A stretch of DNA of 64,000 nt. It comes from Halobaculum sp. XH14 (lineage in GTDB: Archaea > Halobacteriota > Halobacteria > Halobacteriales > Haloferacaceae). The stretch spans positions 1,674,001 to 1,738,000 of the forward strand of contig NZ_CP134949.1 of the NCBI RefSeq assembly GCF_032116555.1. The letters run 5' to 3'. Positions within the stretch are counted from its first letter, which is position 1, and each line of letters starts with the position of its first letter. The notes beneath the pieces were generated by a model. It saw only the letters and a program-made list of their open reading frames with translations. It had not been told where the DNA came from and did no database searches. A program made the translations under genes and the position numbers. Below, piece after piece: positions 29,950 to 31,953 of the stretch.

Positions 29950-30987
29950 TCAGGCGCGATCGAGCCTGATCTCCTGTCCCTCGATGTCCTCCAGGGCGGC
30001 GACGAGCCCGCCGATCGAGACGCGGCCTCCGTCCGGGTCCTCGACCGTGATGGAAGCGACCTGTTCCGAGGCGTCGAACTCGTACTCCACGACCGGCCCT
30101 TCGACCCTGACGTCGGTTCCCGTCTCGACGTCCCTGCCGGTGATCGCCGCCCTGAAGTTCCCGTCGAGTTCGTGGACGTCCTTGACCGCCCGGCGGATGG
30201 AGGCGTACGTCCGAGGGAACGGTCGCCCCTCCCCGTCCGCGGCGATGCTGTCGGCTGTGCTCCACAGCACCGTCCCGAAGAAGCCCGAGACGAGGAAGCC
30301 GAGCGCGGAGCGATTGAAGATGACGCCGTAGCGGTCCCGATCGTCCCGCAGCGCGTCCTGGGTCGCGTACATCGAGTACTCGCCGTCTGCGACCGCGATG
30401 ACGGGCGTGGTGATGCCGCGTCGCCCGCGGACCTCGGTGGCGACGGCCTCGTAGTCGAACTCCCCGGGCGAGGGCGCGCGCGAGGCGGGCGTCACGAGCA
30501 GTTCGATCGCGACGCCGTCGGCGATCCGTTCCGAGAGCGTCTCGCGGAACCGTCGCAGCAGGTCGGGCGTGAGCGACACGGCCAGTTCGTACTCCGCGCC
30601 CTCGATGACCTCCTCCAGGTAGCGCAGGATCGTCGAGCGCGACTTCACCAGCGAGACCGCCTCCGTGTCCCGCGTCGGCGCGGTGTATCTCGCCTCCAGT
30701 TCGTCGACCATCTCGGCGAGCGACGAGCGGATGTCGCCGAACGCCTCGTCGGGGTCGACCGCGACGATCTTCATCGGGCGCGACTCCCGGAGCTCCACCA
30801 GCCCGCGGTCCGAGAGGCTCCTGACGGTGTCGTACACCCTGGGCTGTGGGATGTCGGTCTCCGAGGCGATCTCGCTCGCGGTCAGTTCCCCCCGTTCGAG
30901 CACGGCGAGGTAGGCGTCGATCTCGTACTCCCCGAGGTTGAAGCGCTCCCCCACCCGCTCCATCGTCGAGCGCAGGTCGTCGGCCAT
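29950..30987 (-). CDS. trmB: TrmB-type sugar-responsive transcriptional regulator
   Basis: A 345-residue regulator with an N-terminal winged HTH ([20 protein letters not shown], then [20 protein letters not shown]) and the C-terminal TrmB sugar-binding region ([18 protein letters not shown]). Full length matches haloarchaeal TrmB, which in Halobacterium represses or activates gluconeogenesis and many metabolic genes depending on glucose. A perfect match to that regulator's consensus (TACT-N7-GAGTA) lies directly upstream of its own TATA box, so autoregulation is likely. Orthology is inferred from length, domains and this site. Confidence 0.85.
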
Positions 30988-31008
30988 ACGAGCACCACCG
31001 TCCGAGGG

Positions 31009-31013
31009 TATAT
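31009..31013 (-). promoter_or_regulatory. TATA box of trmB
   Basis: The AT core of GCCATATACCC on the minus strand lies 22-26 bases before the trmB ATG, the distance of a leaderless archaeal promoter. Confidence 0.6.
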
Positions 31014-31019
31014 GGCATT

Positions 31020-31035
31020 TACTGACTCCCGAGTA
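31020..31035. promoter_or_regulatory. Candidate TrmB operator (TACT-N7-GAGTA)
   Basis: TACTGACTCCCGAGTA matches exactly the published haloarchaeal TrmB cis-element pattern TACT-N7/8-GAGTA. It lies six bases upstream of the trmB TATA box, the position that in Halobacterium is associated with activation rather than occlusion. Basis: direct pattern match plus knowledge of the family. Confidence 0.7.
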
Positions 31036-31037
31036 GT

Positions 31038-31057
31038 ACCCGCTTTCGAAAGCGGGT
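31038..31057. repeat. Perfect 20-bp palindrome upstream of trmB
   Basis: ACCCGCTTTCGAAAGCGGGT is a perfect inverted repeat of 10+10 bases, two bases from the TrmB site. No T-run follows in either direction, so an operator or a hairpin at the 3' end of the PAC2 transcript is more likely than a terminator. Confidence 0.9.
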
Positions 31058-31197: not shown

Positions 31198-31953
31198 TCA
31201 CATGTACATCCGATCGAGCGGCTGATCCTCCTCGGCTGAGTCCTCCAGCCGTTCCGCGAGGCTCTGGTAGTGCTGGTGAACTTCGTCCGCGAACGCCCGG
31301 AGCGGGGCGGTGTCGACGCCGAGCCCGTACACGGCCTCGACGGCCTCCAGCAGCCTGATGGTCGCCTCGACGTCTGGCACCTCCGCGTGGACCGGCGTGA
31401 CGTACACTGCGACGCCCAGCGAGGAGTCCATTCCGCGAGCCATCAGCGCGGCGTTCGTCCCGTCGAGGAACCCGTTCCCCATCGGCGGCACGTCCGGCGC
31501 GTCGGGGCCCGAGAGGTGGTCGTCGACGTAGTCGTCGCTTGCGACGTAGAACGTGCGGTGGTCCTCCGGACCGTGTGCGAACGGGACGCCGGACAGCACC
31601 GCGATCTCGTCGACGCCGTCCCGTTCGGTCCACTCCAGGACGGCCCGCGAGAACGGCTCCGCGGACGGCACCGGAACGAACAGTTCGCCGACGAGGACGG
31701 TCACGTCGAGCCCCGGCCGGGAGTAGAGCCGCGTCGGGTATCGCGGTCGACCGCCCTCGAACGGCGTGATGGTGGGGAGCCCTTCGGCGCGGATGTGTCC
31801 GCTCGATTCGAGTTCCAGGTGGTCGACGAGGTAGTCCACCGCCGTCAGTCCCACGAGCCCGAACCCCGAGAATCCGGCGAGGAGAGTGGTCGACTGGCTC
31901 GGATCGCCCTCGACGTGGAACGTGGGACCGGAGTCGGTGTGTGGGTTCGCCAT
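31198..31953 (-). CDS. PAC2 family protein (proteasome assembly chaperone-like)
   Basis: A 251-residue protein with the PAC2 pattern: LLAGFSGFGLVGLTAVDYLV, VLVGELFVP and IAVLSGVPFA. Archaeal PAC2 proteins are related to proteasome assembly chaperones and bind 20S core particle precursors in some species. The ATG of MANPHTD is used. The gene ends 210 bases before trmB; the region between has the palindrome and TrmB site. No proteasome subunit gene is nearby. Confidence 0.85.
   Translation of the reverse strand: MANPHTDSGPTFHVEGDPSQSTTLLAGFSGFGLVGLTAVDYLVDHLELESSGHIRAEGLPTITPFEGGRPRYPTRLYSRPGLDVTVLVGELFVPVPSAEPFSRAVLEWTERDGVDEIAVLSGVPFAHGPEDHRTFYVASDDYVDDHLSGPDAPDVPPMGNGFLDGTNAALMARGMDSSLGVAVYVTPVHAEVPDVEATIRLLEAVEAVYGLGVDTAPLRAFADEVHQHYQSLAERLEDSAEEDQPLDRMYM

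Follow-up and report, generated by a model that had tools for sequence, protein, structure and literature searches.

A predicted TrmB operator with a half-site that coincides with the BRE in the trmB promoter of Halobaculum sp. XH14 and many other haloarchaea

The stretch of Halobaculum sp. XH14 DNA analyzed here (the window; 64,000 nucleotides) carries a minus-strand gene for a TrmB-type sugar-sensing regulator (Table 1). Its product scores 572.4 bits against the NF047392 profile (TransRegTrmBHalo), for which the curated equivalog cut-off is 500, is matched by both PF01978 (TrmB HTH) and PF11495 (Regulator_TrmB sugar-binding), and resembles the solved TrmB protein of P. furiosus (3qph; E 2.9e-20). 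The assignment to the TrmB family made in the initial annotation is thereby confirmed; this is a true haloarchaeal TrmB gene, and the only strong trmB copy in the genome. Upstream of it, and in the same orientation, lies a gene of the PAC2 family (31198-31953), with 210 bp separating the two; hence, the promoter in this gap is trmB's own.

Table 1. Features of the trmB locus, in positions of the window
Feature	Position	Strand	Basis
trmB, 345-amino-acid haloarchaeal sugar-sensing regulator with winged HTH and sugar-binding domain	29950-30987	-	profile and structure matches
TATA-like box ATATAC, 21-26 bases before the ATG	31008-31013	-	sequence; TTA conserved here
AGTAAA proximal half-site, coinciding with the expected BRE	31018-31023	-	column conservation in trmB and gapII promoters
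Predicted TrmB operator, TACTCGGGAGTCAGTA with the gene, TACTGACTCCCGAGTA on the + strand	31020-31035	-	top match of the gapII matrix; conserved in seven families
Perfect 20-bp palindrome ACCCGCTTTCGAAAGCGGGT, consensus AC-N4-TTYCGRAA-N4-GT	31038-31057	.	alignment of trmB promoters; conserved

The predicted operator is the sole exact occurrence of TACT-N7/8-GAGTA in the window; in dinucleotide shuffles of the window, this pattern occurs 0.08 times on average and at least once in 5 of 100. It is the consensus of the Halobacterium salinarum TrmB protein (VNG1451C), a member of the same family that is bound in the absence of glucose. The consensus orientation is found on the strand opposite to trmB; read with the gene, the site is directly followed by AAT. 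The exact fit to the consensus and the six-base gap that separates the site from the TATA box had both been pointed out in the initial annotation and hold, as does its leaderless ATG (30985-30987) in the sense of a near-leaderless geometry. The BRE and the TATA box of this promoter were assigned by sequence.

As a tool for scanning entire genomes, the exact published string was rejected: its 21 matches in the whole genome do not exceed the 30 found for the reversed control, most of them look coding, and the string misses the gapII and ppsA sites of the same genome. The exact string discriminates poorly. A second candidate, TACTCG-N6-AGT, occurs 39 times genome-wide versus 7 times for its reversed control and was rejected as well; most of these matches resemble antisense coding sequence and have TTCG directly after them. 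No matching site was found near the PF00316 genes examined as FBPase loci, a mixed set of paralogues. The trmB site is judged to be real on the basis of its conservation and its match to sites derived from gapII promoters, and not on the basis of its fit to the exact string.

Because circularity was to be avoided, a 20-position matrix was derived solely from gapII promoters (44 distinct sites, approximately 12 effective), and the DNA upstream of 110 trmB loci, with some genomes represented in two collections, was compared. With this matrix, the trmB site ranks first among the approximately 128,000 positions of the window with a score of 18.7 bits. Of the 110 trmB promoters, 105 have an equivalent site of at least 8 bits at -49 to -51, and in 99 of the 110 loci (4-6 kb each) the equivalent site is the best match overall; the five loci without the site are those of Haladaptatus (four) and Halomicrococcus (one). 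Judged from this comparison of promoter sequences, the site is more than a chance match. In the orientation of trmB, the conserved sequence is (T/A)ACTCG-N6-AGTAAA. The right half is variable (AGTAAA, GGTAAA or AATAAA) around a nearly invariant TAAA, so that part of its conservation may reflect conservation of the BRE alone.

The gapII promoters offer a means to connect this motif with its putative binding protein. They carry TTACTCG-N6-AGTTAATTTC, or close forms of it, at about -74. Among the genomes of Halobaculum's own family that were read, the gapII-promoter site is absent from four that lack trmB (G013, G038, G056 and G046), and also from those whose TrmB protein is only 58-59% identical; it is likewise absent from 14 trmB-less genomes elsewhere. 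Since the gapII sites occur together with a canonical TrmB protein and are missing from all trmB-less genomes among those with a gapII promoter that was read, the motif tracks TrmB. In the four own-family genomes named above, the first three of which belong to one genus, gapII itself has been kept.

Further matches are found in other promoters. In Haloarcula hispanica, whose ChIP-bound promoters are given in Table 2 of PMC10817205, the matrix recovers sites on pHH400 at the bound and repressed promoters of an MFS transporter and a universal-stress gene, with training sequences that derive mostly from families other than that of Har. hispanica; before the rubrerythrin and GdhB genes on the Har. 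hispanica plasmid, the lowest-ranked ChIP peak, it finds no match. The ppsA promoter of the Halobaculum genome (L345) contains the TrmB-like palindrome ACACTCGCCTCCGAGTAGTT at -84 relative to the ppsA start, as does a second locus (L224); it is likely an activation site. In the comparison of ppsA promoters, starts with a wrong orientation were disregarded. At a separate locus (L011, approximately 1500-1560), an exact palindromic TACTCACCCCCGAGTA lies shortly upstream of a gene for a predicted sugar-transferase-like membrane protein and possibly marks a further TrmB target.

The site in the trmB promoter is thus very probably a TrmB operator. One might instead attribute it to another factor, either a TrmB paralogue or the protein that binds the second palindrome listed in Table 1, with AGTAAA being conserved as BRE only. 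The variable right half with its nearly invariant TAAA and the presence of this palindrome exactly 21 bp upstream fit such a view, but the site matches the gapII operators in sequence and spacing, and these come and go with TrmB. We consider this explanation highly improbable.

With a conserved predicted operator in its own promoter, self-regulation of trmB is well supported, and the position of the operator bears on its direction. As judged by column conservation, the BRE position of the trmB promoters holds no A-rich element other than the AGTAAA half, from which the conserved TTA of the TATA box is 4-5 bp away; in gapII promoters, BRE (CGAAAC) and TATA box are approximately 14 bp clear of the TrmB site. 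In Har. hispanica, the sites of activated targets lie upstream of the initiation elements and those of repressed targets overlap the BRE, a rule that rests on few tested promoters and to which HAH_0188 is an exception named by the authors (PMC10817205). In five genomes of the Haloarcula group, the site of the repressed MFS promoters is found at -32 to -11, where it covers the TATA region, and the P. furiosus TrmB protein represses malE from a site over the BRE/TATA elements (PMC4706686). Given that the AGTAAA half lies over the BRE and that repressed targets have sites overlapping BRE or TATA, we favor negative autoregulation of trmB, with somewhat more confidence than doubt.

The main rival to this interpretation is the positive autoregulation envisioned in the initial annotation, in which TrmB bound at the site would aid the loading of TFB/TBP and activate trmB when glucose is absent. 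The site does lie upstream of the TATA box, the Thermococcales regulators TrmBL1 and Tgr activate from positions upstream of BRE/TATA (PMC4158304, PMC4706686), and the majority of the Har. hispanica TrmB targets are activated (PMC10817205). However, the proximal half of the site is the BRE itself and hence not clear of the promoter, and in the same genome the activated gapII and ppsA sites have approximately 20-30 bp more between them and the start codon. We therefore regard activation as rather unlikely. Of the original proposal, the predicted operator in the gene's own promoter stands; the step from a position upstream of the TATA box to activation is not supported, as the proximal half-site coincides with the BRE and the geometry favors repression. 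With the sign corrected in this way, trmB becomes a clear-cut case for testing how, in archaea, distance from the BRE determines activation versus repression.

Operator binding, its dependence on glucose and the direction of regulation are what we infer from the architecture of the promoter. In the negative feedback that we favor, sugar-free TrmB would occupy TACTCG-N6-AGTAAA when glucose is absent and, with its proximal half-site over the BRE, would be expected to block TFB/TBP and thereby lower trmB transcription; in the presence of glucose, TrmB would be released and trmB relieved. Such a circuit would steady the level of the regulator, while gapII and ppsA would be activated from their sites further upstream. 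The P. furiosus TrmB operator on malE (TACT-N3-AGTA) is likewise palindromic and overlaps the BRE, and it shares the mechanism of repression that we propose here, but its spacer is shorter, it serves another target gene and other sugars, and it does not reside in the regulator's own promoter. Closer in the latter respect is the TrmB-family protein Tgr of Thermococcus kodakarensis, whose operator (TGM) is present in its own promoter and for which autoregulation has been proposed; this operator differs in sequence (TATCAC-N5-GTGATA), and its host is a hyperthermophile.

The second palindrome of the trmB promoter lies upstream of the TrmB site at an offset of exactly 21, or 20 bp from centre to centre. 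A matrix trained on Haloferacaceae and applied to held-out families detects it at this offset wherever a trmB promoter carries the TrmB site, two Haloquadratum loci excepted, and in none of the trmB promoters without that site. The fixed spacing of two helical turns suggests that two dimers may sit on the same face of the DNA at this promoter, so that the palindrome would probably bind another dimer acting jointly with the operator; candidates are another regulator or the second dimer of a TrmB tetramer. The element suggests that a partner not yet recognised acts at the top of the sugar network in haloarchaea. A meeting of two regulators at a TrmB-controlled promoter has a parallel in Haloferax volcanii, where TrmB and TbsP reportedly control gapII. 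The parallel is limited: gapII promoters have no second palindrome at the corresponding position, and the idea that it is a part shared with these promoters was rejected.

Outside Halobaculum's own family, the trmB-promoter site is found at the equivalent place in five others (f3, f6, f7, f8 and f10), and it is absent in f4, in f12 and in most of f5; it was not found in the trmB promoters of Haloarculaceae, Halobacteriaceae and Haladaptatus. The presumed Halobacterium trmB promoters (f12) differ from the one studied here in having neither the BRE-abutting site nor the second palindrome; for H. salinarum TrmB, binding close to its own gene has been reported (as cited in PMC10817205). Genome G180 of f4 is that of Har. 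hispanica, since its MFS protein shows 100% identity and occupies the same coordinates as on pHH400. The TrmB protein of this archaeon belongs to the same family, recognizes a partly palindromic 19-bp motif, and binds and activates the gapII promoter (PMC10817205). It differs from the system considered here in that autoregulation was reported to be absent in vivo (PMC10817205), and this agrees with a trmB promoter in which the gapII matrix detects no TrmB site. Reports on the self-regulation of TrmB conflict between species, and the presence or absence of the site provides a simple explanation at the level of sequence that predicts, genus by genus, where self-control exists.

Mapped onto a tree of TrmB proteins, presence of the site requires three changes of state, compared with a mean of 16.9 after shuffling of the labels. 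One possible reading is a single gain together with losses in f12 and in Haladaptatus/Halomicrococcus; as the tree was rooted by midpoint, we infer which changes were gains and which were losses. It might be argued that TrmB merely occupies the site, with trmB output barely altered and TrmB activity set by sugar only, and indeed only about half of the sites bound in Har. hispanica are near regulated genes (PMC10817205). The fixed position of the site, its conservation over many genera and the inferred single gain and two losses argue instead for a selected effect, and we deem mere occupancy improbable. In its fullest form, to which we give an even chance, our proposal is that many haloarchaea share a two-operator trmB module in which one operator, that of TrmB, doubles as BRE, while the other is a dedicated palindrome (AC-N4-TTYCGRAA-N4-GT) that lies exactly two helical turns upstream and is co-bound by a second factor or by the second dimer of a TrmB tetramer. 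This module would have arisen once and would have disappeared from Halobacteriaceae and Haladaptatus, making TrmB self-control a lineage-specific switch.

A strict version of the second-palindrome pattern occurs at two places in the Halobaculum genome, the trmB promoter and a position without clear promoter context. Across 40 related genomes, the strict pattern is more common than its reversed control, an excess to which coding strings perhaps contribute in part. One strict copy, in a relative (G016:C45:38868-38887), is situated approximately 115 bases before a gapII gene, an arrangement unlike that of other gapII promoters.
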